Source: Candidatus Polarisedimenticolia bacterium (GTDB lineage Bacteria; Acidobacteriota; Polarisedimenticolia; Gp22-AA2; AA152). From it: a stretch of DNA of 38,895 nt. Positions 9,157 to 35,050 of the stretch are shown piece by piece. Numbering within the stretch: position 1 is the first letter of the stretch; each line of letters starts with the position of its first letter. Made by a program: the position numbers and the translations under genes. The DNA is taken from assembly GCA_035764505.1 (NCBI GenBank), contig DASTZC010000210.1, forward strand, positions 1 to 38,895. The letters run 5' to 3'. The notes below the pieces were generated by a model. That model ran no database searches. It had not been told where the DNA came from and saw only the letters and a list, made by a program, of their open reading frames with translations.

Positions 9157-9676
9157 ATGAATCATGCCCGGTGGATACGGGCGGCGATCGCCTGCCTCGC
9201 CGCGCTCTGGCTCTCCTGCTCGGAGCCGGGCAGAGCCCCGAGCGACAGCCTGATGAATGCGCCGCCGACATCCTGAAATCGGTGCGATCCTCCGGCGCCG
9301 CCGCCGTTCTGGTCAATCGATGGGCGACCTGGTGCGATCCCTGCCGCGAGGAGTTCCCCCACCTGCTGCGCCTGGCGCGGAAGTACCGGCCGCGGGGCTT
9401 GAAGATCCTGCTGGTTTCCGCCGACAGCCAGGACGAGGCCGAGGCGGTGCGTCGCTTCCTGAAGGAGCAGGGGGTCGATTTCCCCACCTACCTGAAGGCC
9501 GAGGAGGATCCACCGTTCCCATCGACGGATTGGAGCAGCACTGGACGGGGGCGCTGCCGGCGACCTTGCTGTTCGACGCCAGCGGCCGCCGGCGCGGCTT
9601 CTGGGAGGGGCCGGTGGCGACGCCCGAGCTGGAGAAAGAGATCATCGGAGTGCTGGGCCAGCCCGCCCATTCCTGA
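9157..9676 (+). pseudogene. TlpA-like thioredoxin lipoprotein, broken by two frameshifts
   Basis: The pieces read as one TlpA/ResA-type disulfide reductase spread over three frames. From ATG 9157 the first frame gives a lipoprotein signal (LAALWLSC, lipobox cysteine near residue 22) and stops at 9276. The second frame, used from roughly 9255 to 9510, carries VLVNRWATWCDPCREEF with the WC-x-x-C active site, then the helix and strand of the thioredoxin fold. The third frame, from about 9512 to the TGA at 9676, supplies VPIDGLEQHW, the conserved GALPATLLFD with its cis-proline, and a normal C-terminal helix. Both shifts have the same sense, each equivalent to one missing base. The homology is clear and the gene looks only recently broken. 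Sequencing or assembly error is as likely as true decay. GTG 9171 opens the second frame but gives no sensible signal peptide. Confidence 0.75.
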
Positions 9677-9688
9677 GGGAGGAGCGAC

Positions 9689-10285
9689 ATGAAGCGGATC
9701 CTGCTTTGCGCGACGGCGGCGGCAGTCTCCCTGAGCGCCGCCTTCGCCCTCGGCATCGGCGACAAGGCGCCTTCCACCCGCGTCAAGATGAAGAACGTCG
9801 ACGGCCGGGAGCTTTCCATCAAGGATGTGGCGGGGGAGAAGGGGACGCTCGTCGTCTTCTCCTGCAACCATTGCCCCTACGTGACGGCGTGGCAGGAGCG
9901 CATCGCCGCCATCGGCAACGCGGCGATGGAGCGCTCCATCGGCGTGATCGTCATCAACTCGAACGATCCCAAGGCCCATGCCGAGGACGGCTACGAGCAG
10001 ATGCGGCAGCGCGCCGGGGAGCTGCGCTTCAATTTCCCCTACGTCGTGGACAAGACCTCGGATGTGGCGCGCAACTTCGGGGCGACGAGGACCCCGGAGA
10101 GCTTCCTCTTCTCCAAGGAGGGGACGCTCGTCTACCACGGGGCCATCGACGACTCGCATAAGCCGGCCAACGTGCAGCAGCACTACCTGAAGGACGCCAT
10201 CGAGGCGCTGGTTTCCGGCAAGAACGTCAGAGTGAAGGAGACCAAGTCGGTAGGGTGCAGCATCAAATTCCGCGAATCGAAGTAG
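9689..10285 (+). CDS. Periplasmic thioredoxin-like (redoxin) protein
   Basis: This 198-residue protein starts with a signal peptide (KRILLCATAAAVSLSAAFA) and continues as a thioredoxin-fold redoxin. The active-site region is FSCNHCPYVTAW, giving a C-x-x-C pair near residues 55-58. The later part has VVDKTSDVARNFGATRTPE with the cis-proline loop, then FLFSKEGTLVYHGAIDD, as in the widespread AhpC/TSA-like thioredoxin family proteins with a CNHCPY site. GGGAGGAG just before ATG 9689 is a strong ribosome binding site. It lies 12 bases after the broken TlpA-like gene, so the two probably formed one extracytoplasmic redox operon. Its partner and substrate are unknown. Confidence 0.9.
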   Translation: MKRILLCATAAAVSLSAAFALGIGDKAPSTRVKMKNVDGRELSIKDVAGEKGTLVVFSCNHCPYVTAWQERIAAIGNAAMERSIGVIVINSNDPKAHAEDGYEQMRQRAGELRFNFPYVVDKTSDVARNFGATRTPESFLFSKEGTLVYHGAIDDSHKPANVQQHYLKDAIEALVSGKNVRVKETKSVGCSIKFRESK

Positions 10286-10348: not shown

Positions 10349-10678
10349 CTAGCGACACTTGCAGAGGCGCGGCGGGCAGTTGCTGTGGACGCACTTGCCG
10401 AGGCCCGCGCCGCAGCGTGCGTCGCAATCGGAGTCGCTCCAGCATTCGGGTAGCAGGCGGCAGATGGCCACCGGCTCGGGATTAACGGCTCCCTGGTCGA
10501 AGAAGCCCGGCGGGAGCTGGCCGGGATCCAGGCCGCAATCGCTTCCTGCCGGGAACTGCGCCGGGTCGATCCCCGGATCGAGGTTTACCGCCGGGGTCGG
10601 GCCCGTGGCGCTCATGACCGCCAGTCCCGCCAGGACCACCATGACGGCCGCCAGCTTCCCAATCCAGACGCTGCGCAT
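10349..10678 (-). CDS. Small secreted Cys-rich, defensin-like protein A
   Basis: This 109-residue protein has a signal peptide (KLAAVMVVLAGLAVMSA), a short Pro/Asp-rich middle part with IDPAQFP and LPPGFFDQ, and a Cys-rich C terminus. Its cysteines are at 48, 73, 79, 85, 89, 96, 101, 106 and 108, so from C73 the spacing is C-x5-C-x5-C-x3-C-x6-C-x4-C-x4-C-x-C. The C-x3-C with a final C-x-C and a G-K-C resemble the CS-alpha-beta and gamma-core features of defensins. AGGAGG at 10685-10690 is an ideal ribosome binding site. It is a tandem paralog of protein B at 10775, with the same cysteine spacing and upstream region. I do not recognise a named family. It could be a secreted antimicrobial or signalling peptide, a metal-binding protein or a small structural protein. 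Confidence 0.8.
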   Translation of the reverse strand: MRSVWIGKLAAVMVVLAGLAVMSATGPTPAVNLDPGIDPAQFPAGSDCGLDPGQLPPGFFDQGAVNPEPVAICRLLPECWSDSDCDARCGAGLGKCVHSNCPPRLCKCR

Positions 10679-10774: not shown

Positions 10775-11101
10775 CTAGCGGCACTTGCAGATGCGAGTCG
10801 GGCAGTTGCTGTGAACGCACTTTCCCCCGCCGCCGCCGCAGAGGACGTCACAATCGGAATCGGAGAAGCATTCCGGCAGCCTGCGGCAGGCCATCGGCTC
10901 CGGCGCCGCGCCGTCCTGGTCGAAAAAGCCGGGGGGGATCTGGCCGGTATCCAGACCGCAGTCGCTCGCTGCCGGGAACTGTGCCGGGTCGATGCGGGAG
11001 TCGGGAACCGCCGTAGGGACGGGGATGGCCGAACTCATGACCGCAAGCCCCACGAGCACCACCGCGACCGCCGCCAGCTTCGGCATCCAGGTTCTGTTCA
11101 T
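10775..11101 (-). CDS. Small secreted Cys-rich, defensin-like protein B
   Basis: This 108-residue paralog of the neighbouring protein A has the same design: signal peptide (KLAAVAVVLVGLAVMSS), IDPAQFP, a PPGFFDQ linker and a Cys-rich tail. The cysteines at 72, 78, 84, 88, 95, 100, 105 and 107, plus 48, keep exactly the same spacing as in A while many residues between them differ. That is the pattern expected if disulfide bonds are under selection. The frame is open further upstream to 11347, but ATG 11101 has CCTCCT complementary to the 16S tail at 11108-11113 and a full signal peptide. It is divergent from the sigma-factor operon, with about 115 bases between the start codons. The function is unknown. 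Confidence 0.8.
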   Translation of the reverse strand: MNRTWMPKLAAVAVVLVGLAVMSSAIPVPTAVPDSRIDPAQFPAASDCGLDTGQIPPGFFDQDGAAPEPMACRRLPECFSDSDCDVLCGGGGGKCVHSNCPTRICKCR

Positions 11102-11164: not shown

Positions 11165-11216
11165 GGCACCATCGGGCCGCACCATTTTTCTTGAAAAAAG
11201 AACGAACGGAACCGCG

Positions 11217-11855
11217 ATGAAGCGTGTTCTAAGAAGCATGAAGAACTCCTGGACCGGCGGCGAGGCGGCCATCGTCGTCGAATCAGTTGAAGAGAACCTG
11301 GCCCTGTCGGTGCGCCGGGGCACCCCCGGGGCCTTCGAGCGGCTCATGGATCGCTACGAGGGGTCTTTGTTCACCTACGCTCTCGGGTTTCTGCAGAACC
11401 GTCAGGACGCGCAGGAGGTGGTGCAGGACGCCCTGGTGCGGGCGCACCGGGCGTTGACCCGGCAGTACGACGAGAGGCGCTGCGCCTCGCTGGCGCTGCG
11501 CCCCTGGCTGTTCCGGGCGGTGCGCAACCTCTGCCTCAACAAACGCCGCCCCAAAGGACGCGCCCTGGAGCGGCCGCTGGAGGAGTACGACGACGGGCGG
11601 ATCGGGCCGTTCGTCCGGTCACGGCGCAGCGATTTCGAGCAGCACGAGGAAGCCGACGTGCTGCGAGCCACGCTGGCCTCGCTGCCGGTGGAGGCACGGG
11701 AGCTGATCGTTCTGCGGTTCATGGAGGAGATGTCGTACGCCGAGATCGCCCGAACGGTCGGGACGACGCAGGCGGCCTTGCGAGCCAAGGTGTTTCGCGC
11801 CCTGAAGATGCTGCGCGAGTCGCTGGAGAAGAAGGGAGTCACCCATGCGGTGTAG
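11217..11855 (+). CDS. ECF-type RNA polymerase sigma factor
   Basis: This protein of about 212 residues has only the two domains of group IV (ECF) sigma factors. Region 2 is FTYALGFLQNRQDAQEVVQD with the core-binding and -10 recognition helices, and LALRPWLFRAVRNLCLNKRR completes that domain. Region 4 is LPVEARELIVLRFMEEMSYA followed by the EIARTVGTTQAALRAKVFRA helix-turn-helix. ATG 11217 and ATG 11238 are both plausible starts, and neither has a strong ribosome binding site. The 3' end overlaps the next gene by 11 bases, the usual coupling of an ECF sigma factor to its anti-sigma factor. The partner here is an unusual zinc-finger/Ogt/Ada fusion, so the sigma factor may control genes responding to DNA alkylation. 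Its target promoters are not known. Confidence 0.92.
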   Translation: MKRVLRSMKNSWTGGEAAIVVESVEENLALSVRRGTPGAFERLMDRYEGSLFTYALGFLQNRQDAQEVVQDALVRAHRALTRQYDERRCASLALRPWLFRAVRNLCLNKRRPKGRALERPLEEYDDGRIGPFVRSRRSDFEQHEEADVLRATLASLPVEARELIVLRFMEEMSYAEIARTVGTTQAALRAKVFRALKMLRESLEKKGVTHAV

Positions 11856-12726
11856 AACGGTATTGACGAGAATCGACGCGCTGCGGACGGGGGAGCTGCA
11901 TCCCGCACAGCGGGGAGCGGTGCGCAAGCACCTGCGCACCTGCGCCAGCTGCGACGAGTCGGTCGCGGACCTGGCGCAGCTGGCGCGGGCGGTGAAATCG
12001 CTGGCGGCGGTCCCTTCCGGCGCTCTGCGCGAGGCGCTGGAGCCCGCCGGATCCTATGCGCGCCTGTCCACCTCCTTCGGGCCCCTCTGGGTGGCCTTCT
12101 CGCGCCGCGGCCTGCGCATGATCCACCTGGGGGGCGGGGAGGAAGCCTTCCTGTCGCGGCTGGCGGCGCGCTATGCCCGGCGTCCGCGCCGCGCCGATCT
12201 CCCGGCCCCGTTGCGCCGGCGCATCCTGGCGACCCTGGAAGGGAAGGCCAGCGGCCGGGTGCCGATCGATCTCGGCGGCGCCTCGCCGCTCGAGACGCAG
12301 GTGCTCGAGGCGATGGCGCGAATCCCGCGCGGCGAGGTGCGCAGCTACTCCTGGCTCGCGGCGTGTGTCGGCCGCCCGCGCGCGGTGCGTGCGGTGGCCC
12401 GCGTCGTCGCCGGCAACCGGATTCCCTTCGTGCTGCCCTGCCATCGCGTGGTTCCGGCAGGAGGAGGGACCGGGGAATATGCTTTCGGCAGTGAGAAAAA
12501 GCGACGTCTGCTGCGCCGGGAGGGGGTCGACGTCGATCAGCTCGATGATCTCGCCCGGCGAGGCGTGCGCCTGATCGGATCGCGCACGACCGGTATTGCC
12601 TGCGTTCCCACCTGCCGCGACGCGCGCCGCATCCGCGCAGACAACCAGGTGCCGCTGCGCGGCCCCGCCGATGCGCATCAGGAAGGATTCCGGCCATGCC
12701 GCCACTGCCGGCCCTTCGCGGCCTAG
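11845..12726 (+). CDS. Anti-sigma zinc finger / O6-methylguanine methyltransferase / Ada zinc-domain fusion
   Basis: Three domains can be read in this 293-residue protein. Residues 1-55 form a zinc-binding anti-sigma (zf-HC2) module, with C3 and the H29-x3-C33-x2-C36 motif. Residues 70-228 are a complete Ogt-type methyltransferase: the HTH arginine finger is near R182, N191 precedes the active site, PCHRV at 198-202 has acceptor C199, and a terminal LLRREG is present. Residues 240-291 match the Ada N-terminal zinc domain, with C253, C257, C285 and C288 in the C-x3-C...C-x2-C pattern and the segments SRTTGIACVPTCRDARR and GFRPCRHCRP. In Ada this domain repairs methyl phosphotriesters and works as a switch. 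There is no AraC-type DNA-binding domain and no membrane segment. It overlaps the ECF sigma gene by 11 bases and the phosphatase gene by 31. A role as a methylation-sensing anti-sigma factor with repair activity is inferred. Confidence 0.9.
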   Translation: MRCRTVLTRIDALRTGELHPAQRGAVRKHLRTCASCDESVADLAQLARAVKSLAAVPSGALREALEPAGSYARLSTSFGPLWVAFSRRGLRMIHLGGGEEAFLSRLAARYARRPRRADLPAPLRRRILATLEGKASGRVPIDLGGASPLETQVLEAMARIPRGEVRSYSWLAACVGRPRAVRAVARVVAGNRIPFVLPCHRVVPAGGGTGEYAFGSEKKRRLLRREGVDVDQLDDLARRGVRLIGSRTTGIACVPTCRDARRIRADNQVPLRGPADAHQEGFRPCRHCRPFAA

Positions 12727-13466
12727 AGATCGGCACGCCGCCGCTGCCGCCCGGGCGGCGCCACGGCTGGGACGTGCATGCCTTCTCCCGTCCGGCCCGG
12801 ACGTTCACCGGTGATTTCTACTTAACGCGCCGCGGCGGCGGGAGTCTCTGGCTGGCGCTTGGCGACGTCGCGGGCAAAGGACTGCCCGCCGCCGTCTTCA
12901 TGGCAATGATCCAGGAAAAGCTGGAGGAATTACTGGACGGTTGCGCGTCACGATCGCTGCGGCCCGCGCAGGCGTTGCGACATCTGAATGAGTTTCTCCT
13001 GGCGCAGCTCCCCGCCAATCGCTTCGCCACGGCGGTGGTGGCGCGCCTGTCTGCGGACGGAGCGCTCGAGATTGCGAATGCCGGACATTGCGTGCCGCTC
13101 ATCCGCCGGCGGGAGGGCAGCCTCCAGGGGATCGCTCCTACAGGACCGGTTCTCGGGATCCTGGCCGACCCACAATGGACCGCCGTCAGGACGCGCCTGC
13201 GCGCCACCGAGACGCTGCTGCTCTACAGCGACGGCCTGGTCGAGGCGCCTTCGGGGCGCGCCGAAGAGTTCGGGATGGGACGAATCCGGTCGCTTCTGGC
13301 GGGTGCGGCCGCATCCGATGCGCGAGGCATCGCGGGGAAAATGGTAAAGGCCGCGGAGGAGCACGCCGGCGGGACGCGACACGACGATCTCACGGTGGTG
13401 GTGGCGCAACGCCCGGCGGGGCCGTCCCTGCTTCGGAGCGGATTGGGTCGCGGCTCGGCGGCCTGA
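12696..13466 (+). CDS. SpoIIE/RsbU-type PP2C serine phosphatase
   Basis: The 256-residue protein is a bare PP2C-like SpoIIE domain with no N-terminal sensor. The expected metal ligands are present: D40 in TGDFY, D57 in GDVAGKGLPAA, D179 in LLYSDGLVE and D231 in HDDLTVVV. Family members dephosphorylate anti-anti-sigma proteins in partner-switching pathways and so release sigma factors. ATG 12696 has AGGAAGGA upstream and overlaps the end of the fusion gene by 31 bases, so it is almost certainly the third gene of the sigma operon. No STAS-domain antagonist or serine kinase is nearby, so its substrate here is unclear. It ends 24 bases before a convergent gene. Confidence 0.9.
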   Translation: MPPLPALRGLEIGTPPLPPGRRHGWDVHAFSRPARTFTGDFYLTRRGGGSLWLALGDVAGKGLPAAVFMAMIQEKLEELLDGCASRSLRPAQALRHLNEFLLAQLPANRFATAVVARLSADGALEIANAGHCVPLIRRREGSLQGIAPTGPVLGILADPQWTAVRTRLRATETLLLYSDGLVEAPSGRAEEFGMGRIRSLLAGAAASDARGIAGKMVKAAEEHAGGTRHDDLTVVVAQRPAGPSLLRSGLGRGSAA

Positions 13467-17662: not shown

Positions 17663-18790
17663 TCAGCCTCCGATGACGAGCAGGACTTCCTTACCCCGGA
17701 AAAGGTCGGGATCGAGGATGACCAGCCTGGCCTGGCTGTTGTCCGCATTCTTCTCGATGGTGAAATCCCGCCCCTCCTGGTAGATGGTCGGCAGCAGCTT
17801 CACATGGCGAATTTCCTGCAGCCCGTACGTCTCGGGCGTCAGGGTGATGGTCGTCCCCTGGCGGAGGTCCAGCGACTCGTCGTAGCTCACGCTCCTGACA
17901 TTCTGCACCCGCTTGAGGACGGGGCTGAGCACTCCCTCGTCTTTCAGGGTCTTCTCGTTGGCGGCATGGTAGTAAAGGCTGTTCTCCCGGGCCGCGATGT
18001 CGTCGTTGAGCTGGCCTACGGTGGTCTCCAGCTCCGCCTTGTTGACCTGCAGGGTCGACACCTCGGCCTTCAGCGTGTCGCGCTCCCTGATCAGCCGGCG
18101 CTGCTTCGCGCGCCGCACGGCCAGGGGCGTCTGTCCGGCCTCGCCTTGCGTCACATAAGTCCGGAAGATGTCCTGCTTCGGATCGTAGAAGAACCAGACC
18201 CTGTTCCCGGGAAGCAGCTCGTCGGAGGTGTCGACCTGCGAGAGCAGCGACTTGGCCTTCTCCGGATCGAGGTTGGCTTCGGTCGTCAGGTAGTTCATCG
18301 CCAGATTCTGCTGCTTGTCCCCTTTCTTGACCATGACGAACTTGTCGGAGAGCGACTGCTCCATGCGCGCGACGTTCTCCTGCAAGCCCTGGATCGTCTC
18401 ACGGTCGGCGATGATCTTCTGGAGGAGCGCCTTGTAGGAGACGTCCCTCTCCTGCTCCACCAGCTGATTGAGCACGTCGCGCTGCTCGGGGCTGAGATCC
18501 TGGTTGAAGATCTCCGCGAACTGCAGCGTCTGCTCCCCCGGCTTGCGCGAGGCGTTGAACATATCGATCCGCTTCATCATGGTGTCGGTGGTCTCGTCGA
18601 TCCGATGCCGGTCGTCCTTGAGCTGAGTGAGCAGCTCGTCGGAGGTCTTGGCGGAGCCTGGACCGGGCTTCGAGCAGCCCACGACTCCGAGGGAGATGGC
18701 GGCGACCGCCACCAGGGCGATGAGGTAGGCGCGCCGGCTTCTGGCCTGACGGGCACTCTCGGCCGTCATGAAGACGTGTAATGCGCTCAT
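17663..18790 (-). CDS. Coiled-coil lipoprotein 1 (tandem paralog)
   Basis: The 375-residue protein has a charged N terminus, a hydrophobic stretch (AYLIALVAVAAISLG) and the lipobox VVGC with C39, so it is probably a lipoprotein. Most of the mature part is helical and charged. A coiled-coil segment (LIRERDTLKAEVSTLQVNK) lies near the middle, and the C-terminal 100 or so residues look like beta strands (TITLTPETYGLQEIR, LVILDPDLFRGKEVL, ending in IGG). ATG 18790 has GGAGG at the right distance. Its paralog at 19174 is very similar throughout and differs in length only by a 21-residue coiled-coil insertion. I do not recognise a named family. A role as an envelope spacer or tether is speculative. 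Confidence 0.82.
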   Translation of the reverse strand: MSALHVFMTAESARQARSRRAYLIALVAVAAISLGVVGCSKPGPGSAKTSDELLTQLKDDRHRIDETTDTMMKRIDMFNASRKPGEQTLQFAEIFNQDLSPEQRDVLNQLVEQERDVSYKALLQKIIADRETIQGLQENVARMEQSLSDKFVMVKKGDKQQNLAMNYLTTEANLDPEKAKSLLSQVDTSDELLPGNRVWFFYDPKQDIFRTYVTQGEAGQTPLAVRRAKQRRLIRERDTLKAEVSTLQVNKAELETTVGQLNDDIAARENSLYYHAANEKTLKDEGVLSPVLKRVQNVRSVSYDESLDLRQGTTITLTPETYGLQEIRHVKLLPTIYQEGRDFTIEKNADNSQARLVILDPDLFRGKEVLLVIGG

Positions 18791-19110
18791 GGGACCTCCC
18801 GCGGGATTCACCCCCGCATCGATGTGAAGATATGTTGAGGCACCAGAAGCGAGCAGGATCCGTGCCCGATTCCTGATCGCTTTCGGACCAAGGCTGGGGC
18901 TGCGTGACAGGCAAGGTCTGCAACCGACTCAATCGAATTGCTCTAGCCTCGATCCAGTGCGCGCGCCGATTTCTCCGGGCGGGAGCCGCGATTCTCCAGG
19001 AAGTTCCGTCGAGTTGTCGTCCGTGGTGGACGGTATCAGACCGCGGATGACGCCGAATCACAAATGTCGTGGGCTGATTGGCTGATGGAGGAAGGCCAGC
19101 GCCGGGGGAG
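18791..19110. other. Leader and upstream region of coiled-coil lipoprotein 1
   Basis: There is no gene here. A hairpin at 18801-18817 (GCGGG and CCCGC arms) sits right next to the ribosome binding site and recurs before paralog 2 at 20375-20391. A further block at 19014-19034 (around GTGGACGGT) is also shared with the region upstream of paralog 2 (20606-20627). The segment between these blocks has diverged. Confidence 0.6.
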
Positions 19111-19173: not shown

Positions 19174-20364
19174 TCAGCCTCCGATGACGAGCAGGACTTC
19201 CTTCCCCCGGAAAATGTCGGGGTCGAGGATGACCAGCTTGGCTTCGCTGTGATCGTCCTTCTTCTCGATCGCGAAGTCCCTTCCTTCCCGGTAGATGGAG
19301 GGAAGCAGCTTCACATTGCGGATCTCCTGCAGTCCGAAGGTCTCCGGCGTCAGGGTGATGGTGGTTCCCTGGCGGAGATCCAGCGACTCGTCGTAGGTCA
19401 CGCCCTTCACGTTCTGCACCCGCTTGAGGACGGAGGAAAGGACCCCTTCGTTCTTCAGCGTCTTCTCGTCGGCGGCGTGGTAGTAAAGGCTGTTCTCCCG
19501 GTAGGCGATGTCGTCGTTGAGCTGGCTGACCGTGCCCTCCAGCTCCGCCTTGTTCGCTGTCAGCGTCGTCACCTCGGCCTGCGCGGAGTCGCGCTCGCCG
19601 CGTGCTGAGTCCCGCTCGCCCTGCGCGGTATCGCGCTCGGCCCTGTAGGCGTCGCGCTCCTGGATCAGCTGGCGCTGGCGCGCACGCCGCACCGCCAGGG
19701 GCGTCTGTCCGGCCTCGCCCTGGGTGACGTAGGTCCGGAAGGTGTCATCCTTGGGATTGTAGAAGAACCAGACCTTGTTTCCGGGAAGCAGCTCGTCGGT
19801 CGTGTCGACCTGCGAGATCAGGGACTTGGCCTTCTGGGCATCGAGGCTGGCTTCGGTCGTCAGGTAGTTCATCGCCAGGTCCCGCTGCTTGTCTCCCTTC
19901 TTGACGACGACGAACTTGTCGGAGAGCGACTGCTCGAGGTGCATGACGTTCTCCTGCAAGCCGTGAATCGTCTCGCGGTCGGCGATGATCTTCTGGAGGA
20001 GGGCCTTGTAGGAGACGTCCTTCTCCTCCTGCACCAACTGGTTGAGCGTGTCACGCTGCTCGGGGCTGAGGTCCTGGTTGAAGATCTCGGCGAACTGCAG
20101 CGTCTGCTCCCCCGGCTTGCGCGAGGCGTTGAACATGTCGATCCGCTTCATCATGGTGTCGGTGGTCGTGTCGATCTGCTGCCGGTCGTCCTTGAGCTGG
20201 GTGAGCAGCTCGTCGGAAGTTTTCGCGGAGCCTGGACCGGGCTTCGAGCAGCCCACGACTCCAAGGGTGACGGCGGCGATTGCCACCAGGGCGATGAGGC
20301 TGGCGCGCCGGCTTGTAGCCGGACGCACACTCCCGGCCGTCATGAAGACCTTCAATGCGCTCAT
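19174..20364 (-). CDS. Coiled-coil lipoprotein 2 (tandem paralog with heptad insertion)
   Basis: The 396-residue protein has the same layout as paralog 1: lipobox VVGC at C39, conserved SKPGPGSAKTSDELLTQLKD after it, and the same C-terminal beta-rich region ending in IGG. It differs by three extra seven-residue units in the coiled coil, giving ERD-initiated heptads four times in a row (ERDAYRA, ERDTAQG, ERDSARG, ERDSAQA), where paralog 1 has one. ATG 20364 has GGAGG upstream in a shared leader. Each paralog has its own terminator and probably its own promoter, so they can be expressed separately. The function is unknown. A longer rod between the lipid anchor and the C-terminal domain is the obvious consequence of the insertion. 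Confidence 0.82.
   Translation of the reverse strand: MSALKVFMTAGSVRPATSRRASLIALVAIAAVTLGVVGCSKPGPGSAKTSDELLTQLKDDRQQIDTTTDTMMKRIDMFNASRKPGEQTLQFAEIFNQDLSPEQRDTLNQLVQEEKDVSYKALLQKIIADRETIHGLQENVMHLEQSLSDKFVVVKKGDKQRDLAMNYLTTEASLDAQKAKSLISQVDTTDELLPGNKVWFFYNPKDDTFRTYVTQGEAGQTPLAVRRARQRQLIQERDAYRAERDTAQGERDSARGERDSAQAEVTTLTANKAELEGTVSQLNDDIAYRENSLYYHAADEKTLKNEGVLSSVLKRVQNVKGVTYDESLDLRQGTTITLTPETFGLQEIRNVKLLPSIYREGRDFAIEKKDDHSEAKLVILDPDIFRGKEVLLVIGG
19576..19659. repeat. 21-base in-frame heptad repeat inside coiled-coil lipoprotein 2
   Basis: The codons for E-R-D recur at 19588-19596, 19609-19617, 19630-19638 and 19651-19659, exactly 21 bases apart. Paralog 1 has a single copy at the matching place. 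The array therefore accounts for the whole length difference between the two proteins. Confidence 0.85.
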
Positions 20365-20725
20365 AGGACCTCCCGCGGGATCCACCCCCGCAACGATGTG
20401 GAAATATGTTGAGGAGCAAATCGCGAGCAGGATCTGTGCCCGATTCCCGCGGCCATGTCGATGGATGACCGAAAGGGTGATCCATGGATCTTGCAGGTGG
20501 ACCCAAGCGACTCATTCGAAAGGTTGTGTTCCTTCACGGCGGCGGGTGAGAAATCTGCGCGGCTCGAGGATCGCGCCAATGGATCTCCCGATTCAGGTCC
20601 GCCGTTTTGTCGTCGGGGGTGGACGGTGGCGAGTCACAGGTGTTCACCTGTAATTACATTTTTGTAGGTTTCTTAAGCGAAGATGAAATGCCGTTACGGC
20701 AACGGGTTGCGCAACGAGGCGACCA
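20365..20725. other. Leader and upstream region of coiled-coil lipoprotein 2
   Basis: There is no gene here. It holds the leader hairpin at 20375-20391, the block shared with paralog 1 at 20606-20627, a perfect 16-base palindrome at 20636-20651 and then a markedly A+T-rich stretch around 20652-20690 that could contain the promoter. The last part lies just after the stop codon of the ABC permease. Confidence 0.55.
20636..20651. promoter_or_regulatory. Perfect 16-base palindrome, possible operator
   Basis: ACAGGTGTTCACCTGT has 7-base arms around a two-base centre. It is about 270 bases upstream of coiled-coil lipoprotein 2 and borders an A+T-rich stretch. It could be a dimeric repressor site or the stem of a weak terminator; nothing else supports either reading. 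Confidence 0.35.
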
Positions 20726-33726: not shown

Positions 33727-33966
33727 CTAGTATTCCTCGCCCGAGTCCTTCGCCGGCGGGGGAGGAACATAGTTCCATTCGTCGGGAAGGGCTTGGGGGC
33801 CCGGCCGGATTCCGGCGAGATCGGGGTCCTCTTCGCCGGGTGGCCGGGGCGCATTACCCCGCTGCTCGCTCTTCGCCTGGCGCTGGGCGCGCTTGTCCAT
33901 CTGCTTCTGCTGGCGGGCCATTTCCTTCTGGCGTTTCTTGAAGGAAGGTCTCGATTTGTTGCCCAT
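33727..33966 (-). CDS. Small basic protein of unknown function
   Basis: The 79-residue protein has a highly charged Lys/Arg/Gln-rich first half ([20 protein letters not shown]), probably one long helix, and a Pro/Glu-rich second half ending in [18 protein letters not shown]. Short proteins that begin with a FxKRxKE(L/M)AR-x-x-K helix recur in several phyla with no known function; a link to RNA or ribosomes is a guess based on charge. GAGGAGAG just before ATG 33966 is a good ribosome binding site. TCTAAT at 33985-33990 on the minus strand is a possible -10. Confidence 0.75.
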
Positions 33967-34120
33967 GGCTCTCTCCTCAAGCGCATTAGAGTACGGGGAA
34001 CCGGTCGCGCCGTCAAGAGACGCGCGGCACCCGAGCCCAGGCCGCGGCGGTTATGATCGGCGGGGACCAGGTGCCGTGCTGGCGGCTCCGGCGCCGTCGC
34101 GCACGGCCGAGGAGAATCAA

Positions 34121-35050
34121 ATGCCCGAGCTGCCCGACCTCACGATCTATCGAGAGGCGCTGGAGCGTCGCGTCGTTGGAGAGCCGCTGCAGCAAATCAG
34201 GCTGGCGAGCCCGTTCCTGTTGCGTTCCGTCGACCCGCCGCTGACCGAGGCGCGCGGGCGGCGTGTCCGTGAGGTGCGCCTGCTGGGGAAGCGAATCGTC
34301 TTCGGCCTCGAGGCGGATCTCTTTCTCGTCCTGCACCTGATGATCGCCGGAAGGCTGCGCTGGAGGGAAGCCGGAGCGCGCATCCCGCGCCGGCTCGGCT
34401 CGGCGGCGTTCGACTTTCCCGGGGGGACCCTTCTCATGACCGAGGCCGGCTCCAAGAAGCGCGCCTCGCTGCACCTGGTGCGTGGCGCGGCAGCATTGTC
34501 GGCTTTCGATCGGGGCGGTTTGGAAGTCCTTAACGGCTCCGCCGGCGAGCTCGCCGCGGCGCTGGATAGGGAGAACCACACGCTCAAACGGGCCCTCACC
34601 GACCCCCGGCTGTTCAGCGGCATCGGCAATGCCTACTCCGACGAGATCCTGCACCGCGCGCGCCTGTCGCCGATGCGCCTCACCTCGGCCCTGACCGCCC
34701 AGGAAGTCGATCGCCTGTTCGCCGCCACGGTGGACACTCTGCGTGAATGGATCGAACGCCTTCGCAGGGAAGCAGGGGACGATTTTCCCGAAGAAGTCAC
34801 GGCATTCCGGAAGGGTATGGCGGTGCACGGCCGCTTCCGGCAGCCTTGCCCCGTCTGCGGCACCGCGATCCAGCGCATCGTCTACGCAAACAATGAATGC
34901 AACTACTGTCCGCGCTGCCAGACCGGAGGGCGCATGCTTGCCGACCGGGCTCTGTCCCGGCTCCTCAAGAAGGACTGGCCGCGCACCATCGAGGAGCTGG
35001 AGGATCTGGTGCCTTCGCGCCGCCAGTCCGGATCGGGGAAGCGGGAATGA
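34121..35050 (+). CDS. Fpg/Nei family DNA glycosylase/AP lyase
   Basis: The 309-residue enzyme has the invariant N terminus MPELPDL, with P2 as the nucleophile after Met removal and E3 as the acid. The core helices include [20 protein letters not shown] with the catalytic Lys of the beta-hairpin loop (near LLGKRIVFG) and [19 protein letters not shown] of the helix-two-turn-helix. The C-terminal zinc finger has [17 protein letters not shown] and [12 protein letters not shown] (C-x2-C-x16-C-x2-C). It removes oxidised bases from DNA. MPELPDL in place of the more common MPELPEV marks a less studied subgroup, so its lesion preference cannot be given. ATG 34121 follows GGAG; TATGAT at 34052-34057 may be the -10. 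Its stop overlaps the next start as ATGA. Confidence 0.92.

Follow-up and report, generated by a model that had tools for sequence, protein, structure and literature searches.

An ECF Sigma Factor Paired with a Zinc-Finger/Ogt/Ada Fusion Protein: A Candidate Alkylation-Responsive Sigma/Anti-Sigma Switch

Introduction

The methyl groups accepted by Ogt and by N-Ada are bound irreversibly (PMC4437013), and the methylation of Ada serves as a signal of damage (PMC4437013; PMC6818145); Ada turns on transcription via RNA polymerase and sigma (PMC4437013). AGTs become unstable once alkylated and are then degraded (PMC4605297). ECF sigma factors are typically partnered by soluble anti-sigma domains with an Hx3Cx2C motif, which is more common among soluble anti-sigma factors than any other (PMC7406223). 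In class I anti-sigma domains, helix 1 contacts sigma4 and helix 4 contacts sigma2, with or without zinc, and the cytoplasmic zinc-binding domains are often linked to intracellular redox sensing (PMC7406223). For one group of sigma factors, ECF122, the entry in a 2022 review (PMC8999054) records 6-O-methylguanine DNA methyltransferases nearby, lists no anti-sigma factor and gives the mechanism as unknown; according to that entry, the remark goes back to the classification of Casas-Pastor et al. (2021).

Here, we analyzed a stretch of 38,895 nucleotides (the window) on contig C210 of a Candidatus Polarisedimenticolia genome (4.46 Mb, 288 contigs), in which an ECF sigma factor gene is followed by a gene that fuses an anti-sigma-like zinc finger (zf-HC2), an Ogt methyltransferase and an Ada-type zinc domain (Ada_Zn). 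We propose, with a probability of roughly 0.58, that the pair acts as a sigma/anti-sigma switch responsive to alkylation, filling the role of the Ada adaptive response without an AraC domain. An earlier note on this DNA, made from the letters of the sequence, knew of no described system of this kind. That view holds for the anti-sigma fusion, as our literature search found no paper describing a suicide-methyltransferase/Ada_Zn anti-sigma factor; however, the neighbourhood of an ECF gene and a methyltransferase had already been remarked on for ECF122 (PMC8999054). What we did not find described are the Ada_Zn anti-sigma-like fusion, its promoter, its cargo genes and the joining of all parts in one protein.

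The locus is like ECF122 in that an ECF gene adjoins a methyltransferase gene, a likeness of neighbourhood; it differs in that the methyltransferase bears an anti-sigma-like zinc finger and Ada_Zn, and in its conserved promoter and third gene. With E. coli Ada, the fusion shares the combination of a phosphotriester-acceptor zinc domain and an O6-methylguanine methyltransferase, with cysteines that align with C38 and C321, and presumably self-induction. However, the AraC domain, which in Ada lies between Ada_Zn and Ogt, is absent, the order is reversed (Ogt, then Ada_Zn), and the fusion has an N-terminal zf-HC2 and an ECF sigma factor of its own, whereas Ada works through sigma-70. Because of the absent AraC domain and the reversed order, the fusion is not a member of the Ada family, yet it may be Ada-like in its working. 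The class I (ASDI) zinc anti-sigma factors ChrR, RsrA and RsiW are likewise soluble, with an N-terminal Hx3Cx2C motif and a gene directly behind the ECF gene, but the sensory part here is a suicide DNA-repair methyltransferase with Ada_Zn.

Results and Discussion

Organization of the Locus and Domains of the Fusion Protein

The features of the locus are listed in table 1. The ECF protein matched Sigma70_r2 (E 4e-10) and Sigma70_r4_2 (E 2e-12) in Pfam as well as TIGR02937, and its orthologues show 76% identity in genome G001 and 70% in G003. The earlier note had started this gene at 11217; we consider 11238 the more likely start, since the residues MKNSWTGG are conserved from there and the conserved promoter extends across the ATG at 11217. 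The 11-base overlap with the fusion gene that the note had read was recovered, and the gene block is longer than was described there, with a SpoIIE-type phosphatase gene following the fusion gene and overlapping it by 31 bases.

Table 1. Features of the ECF/fusion locus in the window
Feature	Coordinates	Strand	Basis or remark
Putative ECF-type autoregulatory promoter CGAAC-N16-GTGTT (CGAACGGAACCGCGATGAAGCGTGTT)	11203..11228	+	Conserved element and spacing
ECF sigma factor	11238..11855	+	205 aa from conserved start; 212 aa if ATG 11217
zf-HC2 (ZAS-like)-Ogt-Ada_Zn fusion, 293 aa; proposed alkylation-sensing anti-sigma factor	11845..12726	+	Pfam, conservation
zf-HC2 segment, aa 3-36; C3, H29-x3-C33-x2-C36	11851..11952	+	Pfam above gathering score
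O6-methylguanine methyltransferase (Ogt) region, aa 70-228; nucleophile C199 in PCHRV	12052..12528	+	Alignment with Ada-C 1sfe
Ada_Zn_binding domain, aa 240-290; C253, C257, C285, C288	12562..12714	+	Pfam, N-Ada alignment
SpoIIE-type PP2C phosphatase, third gene of presumed operon	12696..13466	+	Pfam SpoIIE, E 3.5e-44

In the 293-aa fusion, Pfam placed zf-HC2 at residues 3-36 (23.7 bits, cut-off 22.2), DNA_binding_1 of Ogt at residues 149-228 (E 1e-25) and Ada_Zn_binding at residues 240-290 (E 6e-10), and returned no AraC domain. The domain order without AraC is that of the earlier note, and every residue cited there is present, both in the Hx3Cx2C motif and at the two acceptor sites. Residues 70-228 aligned with the Ada-C structure 1sfe (E 2.6e-23), which makes C199 the active site, so that the PCHRV active site of an Ogt is found together with its DNA_binding_1 domain. 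The four cysteines C253, C257, C285 and C288 match the zinc and acceptor cysteines of N-Ada (PDB 1adn, 1u8b and 1zgw), with C253 at the place of C38, the methyl acceptor in E. coli Ada; by sequence, this is the four-cysteine zinc site of Ada with its methyl-acceptor cysteine. Across the related modules described below, C199, H200, R201 and N191 are invariant among the Ogts, and the four Ada_Zn cysteines are invariant across 12 diverse modules. Both acceptor domains look intact in the window fusion. The Ada_Zn match starts at model position 14-20, and the beginning of N-Ada is thus missing.

For the N-terminus, a weak match to the RsrA model TIGR03988 was obtained, and no significant match of the fusion to solved anti-sigma structures was found. 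The AlphaFold model of the fusion, built on an alignment of three distant rows, was poor (mean pLDDT 50.7); its N-terminal helices (residues 2-15, 20-33, 39-55 and 58-64) are all at low pLDDT, and a helical anti-sigma fold is weakly supported by it.

Linkage of the Fusion to ECF Genes in Two Phyla

A single-sequence search of the genome contigs with the fusion returned one unrelated Ogt. We searched 396 genomes of the phylum with profiles, counting full-length relatives with upstream sequence. Eighteen proteins of the Ogt-Ada_Zn type, with Ada_Zn at the C-terminus, were found, and an ECF gene lies directly upstream of all 18; as a background, 3 of the 83 further Ogt loci examined in the phylum have one there. 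The ECF and fusion genes overlap by 11 bases in nine modules, by 4 bases in seven and by 22 bases in one, and are separated by a gap of 87 bases in one; the prevalence of 4- or 11-base overlaps (16/18) suggests translational coupling. Identity is 57-61% within the same family, and the architecture is conserved more widely across the phylum as well, so that it is not due to chance.

In plasmid and replicon records of Actinomycetota, an ECF gene with Ogt-Ada_Zn was present in Rubrobacter radiotolerans (plasmid 2; again with an 11-base overlap), in Nonomuraea gerenzanensis and in Streptomyces strains NBC_01022, NBC_00503 and NBC_00464. In Streptomyces NBC_00212, sigma2, sigma4, Ogt and Ada_Zn are joined in one protein of 448 aa, and this natural joining argues for a physical partnership of the sigma and Ogt-Ada_Zn parts. 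The earlier note had asked whether the architecture recurs beside ECF genes elsewhere; its recurrence in all 18 modules of the phylum and in Actinomycetota, once as a single protein, strongly supports a functional sigma/fusion pair.

A permanent partner of the sigma factor would suit the one-protein form no less than an inhibitor would. The methylated fusion could be a co-activator, binding the ECF and aiding it at the promoter, much as E. coli Ada, once methylated, acts with sigma-70 and the alpha subunit of RNA polymerase. Such a role would agree with the action of Ada on transcription via RNA polymerase and sigma (PMC4437013) and with the f2 and Actinomycetota copies, from which the classical finger is absent. 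However, the finger of the window fusion is the commonest soluble anti-sigma motif (PMC7406223), the order of sigma gene and overlapping partner gene is the layout of a sigma/anti-sigma pair, and the DNA-binding AraC part is gone; we consider a co-activator rather unlikely.

The zf-HC2 finger was present in 11 of the 18 modules (families f1, f34, f48 and f36), with C3 and Hx3Cx2C invariant in all 11. Among those scanned with Pfam, it came close to or over the threshold, and the scores across the modules scanned were marginal (18-29 bits around the cut-off of 22.2). The other seven modules (six of f2 and one of f80) have a short helix-like N-terminus, which may retain just a helix-4-like segment. 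These seven fingerless modules, the marginal zf-HC2 scores, the lack of a significant match among solved anti-sigma structures, the pLDDT of 50.7, the missing start of N-Ada and the absence of a supported wider regulon (see below) speak against an anti-sigma switch. Fingerless modules retain ECF, Ogt and Ada_Zn, so the constant part is not the finger but Ogt or Ada_Zn. This weighs against a finger that senses thiol-reactive or oxidative stress in the style of RsrA and ChrR and leaves Ogt and Ada_Zn as mere repair output, a reading that we regard as distinctly unlikely even though C3 and H29-x3-C33-x2-C36 resemble the zinc site of RsrA (compare the TIGR03988 match) and zinc anti-sigma domains are often tied to redox sensing (PMC7406223).

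Neither acceptor domain is universal among the ECF-Ogt modules. Of the 83 further Ogt loci, the three with an ECF gene directly upstream (genomes G209, G266 and G078) lack Ada_Zn; all three Ogts have N-terminal extensions, which in G266 and G078 contain HxxxCxxC with no Pfam match there. In an Arthrobacter plasmid pair, the ECF, which sits on a long branch, adjoins an N-terminally extended Ogt without Ada_Zn, an arrangement with the look of ECF122. In the Streptomyces copies, conversely, a degraded-looking Ogt is combined with an intact Ada_Zn, and another, separate Ogt gene lies downstream. Judging from these two kinds of modules, the input may come through the Ogt cysteine or through the Ada cysteine, and the Ada zinc cysteine is not established as the switch.

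Loci L097, L098 and L094 (families f37 and f36) show an ECF gene followed by an Ogt with an N-terminal extension, HxxxCxxC in two of them and Ada_Zn absent. At the Streptomyces loci L242 (3635-5067) and L244 (3860-5281), the degraded-looking Ogt with intact Ada_Zn is followed by a separate intact Ogt, with a SARP regulator and metF nearby. In genome G289 (family f35; L198, 123-839), an Ada_Zn-like domain lies at the C-terminus of an Ogt; the reading frame begins 123 bases into the contig, where the upstream sequence is missing. This Ogt is distant from the module clade and is perhaps an independent fusion.

The linkage could also reflect plain co-regulation, with a sigma factor that answers another signal and an Ogt extension that has no part in sigma binding. 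In favour of this, ECF122 stands in its review entry (PMC8999054) without an anti-sigma factor despite the adjoining methyltransferase, and the zf-HC2 scores are marginal. However, the extension is conserved, Hx3Cx2C being invariant across 11 modules, and it occupies the usual position of an anti-sigma domain; the sigma-Ogt-Ada protein exists, and no candidate sensor gene other than the fusion was found to be common to all modules, which makes plain co-regulation quite improbable.

The ECF and Ogt trees were in broad agreement, and the f1 modules cluster with those of f34, from another class, and not with those of f2, from the same order, which suggests that the module moved as a unit by transfer. 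The module Ogts stood apart from the Ogts of classical Ada proteins, in a tree of few columns and modest support with a few other Ogts inside the group.

A Conserved Element Upstream of the ECF Gene

CGAAC-N16-GTGTT precedes the ECF gene in all 11 zf-HC2 modules, and among spacings of 8 to 27 no other occurred. When the Actinomycetota and f80 modules were counted in, AAC-N16-GTGTT was found upstream of the ECF gene in 16 of 23 modules from two phyla; the other spacings scored 0-1 in these 23, except for spacing 11, which scored 7 because many copies bear a second AAC (CGAACGNAAC). The distance from the start of the element to the start codon is 34-37 bases in most modules. The extended f1 form, with at most one mismatch allowed, has a single site per genome, at the operon, in the window genome (G000), G001 and G003. 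The f2 modules, whose ECFs form a separate clade in the tree, have a different element, TTCCACC-N19-GTATAA (6/6), which is mismatch-free only at the operon. The promoter type therefore tracks the ECF type, as would be predicted under autoregulation if each ECF reads its own promoter, suggesting that the ECF activates its own operon.

A regulon beyond the operon was also considered and is unsupported at this stringency, since the promoter pattern gave 23 off-operon matches at the right spacing and 22 at an off-by-one control spacing, which is the level of chance.

Downstream Genes and an Ada-Type Regulator of the Window Genome

A SpoIIE phosphatase gene lies directly downstream of the fusion gene in 9 of the 11 zf-HC2 modules, and a gene for a PF09859 oxygenase, which by its Pfam name acts on damaged DNA, lies downstream in five of the six f2 modules. 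Among the f2 genomes, only G009 has a second PF09859 copy, beside a second module fragment, and the oxygenase was found in none of the other 13 module genomes. With this cargo, the f2 neighbourhood independently points to alkylation repair. The third gene of the window has a full SpoIIE domain, as do the SpoIIE/RsbU-type PP2C phosphatases; unlike for these, neither a partner-switch kinase gene nor a STAS gene was seen next to it. The phosphatase perhaps connects the module to a partner-switching pathway. As the regulator of the module it was dropped, being absent from the f36, f80, f2 and Actinomycetota modules.

Elsewhere, the window genome has a gene for an Ada_Zn-AraC-AlkA regulator, a fusion that lacks Ogt (L199, 767-2404), which counts against the module as the sole alkylation sensor, and the idea of a sole Ada-type sensor in this genome was dropped. 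In roughly half of the 18 genomes, the module carries the genome's only Ada_Zn.

A Model for a Proposed Sigma/Anti-Sigma Switch

What we observed comprises the domains with their key residues, a linkage to ECF genes that holds in every module, a conserved promoter, cargo genes for repair and a protein in which sigma, Ogt and Ada are naturally fused; on these features we base the following model of the switch. In the undamaged cell, the helical zinc-finger domain at the N-terminus of the fusion would keep the ECF sigma factor inactive. Upon damage, C199 of Ogt would accept a methyl group from O6-methylguanine, or a methyl phosphotriester would pass its methyl group to C253 of Ada_Zn. Methylation being irreversible, the fusion would then change shape or be degraded, and the sigma factor would be freed; because alkylated AGTs are degraded and the methylation of Ada is irreversible, a methyl acceptor attached to an anti-sigma domain would be a ready trigger. 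The freed sigma factor would transcribe its own operon from the AAC-N16-GTGTT promoter, yielding more sigma factor, more of the suicide repair/anti-sigma protein and, depending on the lineage, the SpoIIE-type phosphatase or the PF09859 oxygenase. The system would switch off once unmethylated anti-sigma protein is again in excess. We infer the inhibition of sigma, the methylation trigger, the release or degradation, the autoregulation and any role of the phosphatase from these features.

Tentatively, and at somewhat less than even odds, we go a step further: the anti-sigma factor would be the suicide repair enzyme itself, so that each repair destroys one inhibitor and lesions are counted by titration; in several architectures, the one-protein form among them, this principle would govern the adaptive response to alkylation in at least two phyla. 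If the model is true, it would provide a mechanism for ECFs that are listed with unknown regulation (ECF122 and relatives), and a second design for the adaptive response to alkylation, in which an ECF sigma factor replaces the DNA-binding half of Ada. The fusion would also be one of only a few soluble anti-sigma factors whose chemical input is defined; that input would be DNA damage, read in a stoichiometric and self-consuming manner. The promoter element, the residues and the compact three-gene operon make the model directly testable in a laboratory host.

Other Genes in the Window

Immediately upstream of the ECF operon and divergent from it, two tandem genes (10349-10678 and about 10775-11100, both on the minus strand) encode similar small, secreted-looking proteins with the shared end SDSDCDxxCGxGxGKCVHSNCPxRxCKCR; the first gene had no Pfam match. 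A redoxin/AhpC-TSA-like gene (9171-9692, plus strand) has a match that ends half-way and seems to continue in an overlapping frame (9257-9676), a probable frameshift, either genuine or derived from the assembly. Another DNA repair gene of the contig, for a formamidopyrimidine-DNA glycosylase (Fpg/MutM-type), lies at 33893-35047 (plus strand), distant from the module. Two further tandem genes (17663-18811 and 19174-20385, both on the minus strand) encode paralogues of about 380-400 aa without a Pfam family; a relative is found close to the module in genome G001 (L035, 8494-8748), and the two genes are therefore possibly linked neighbours.
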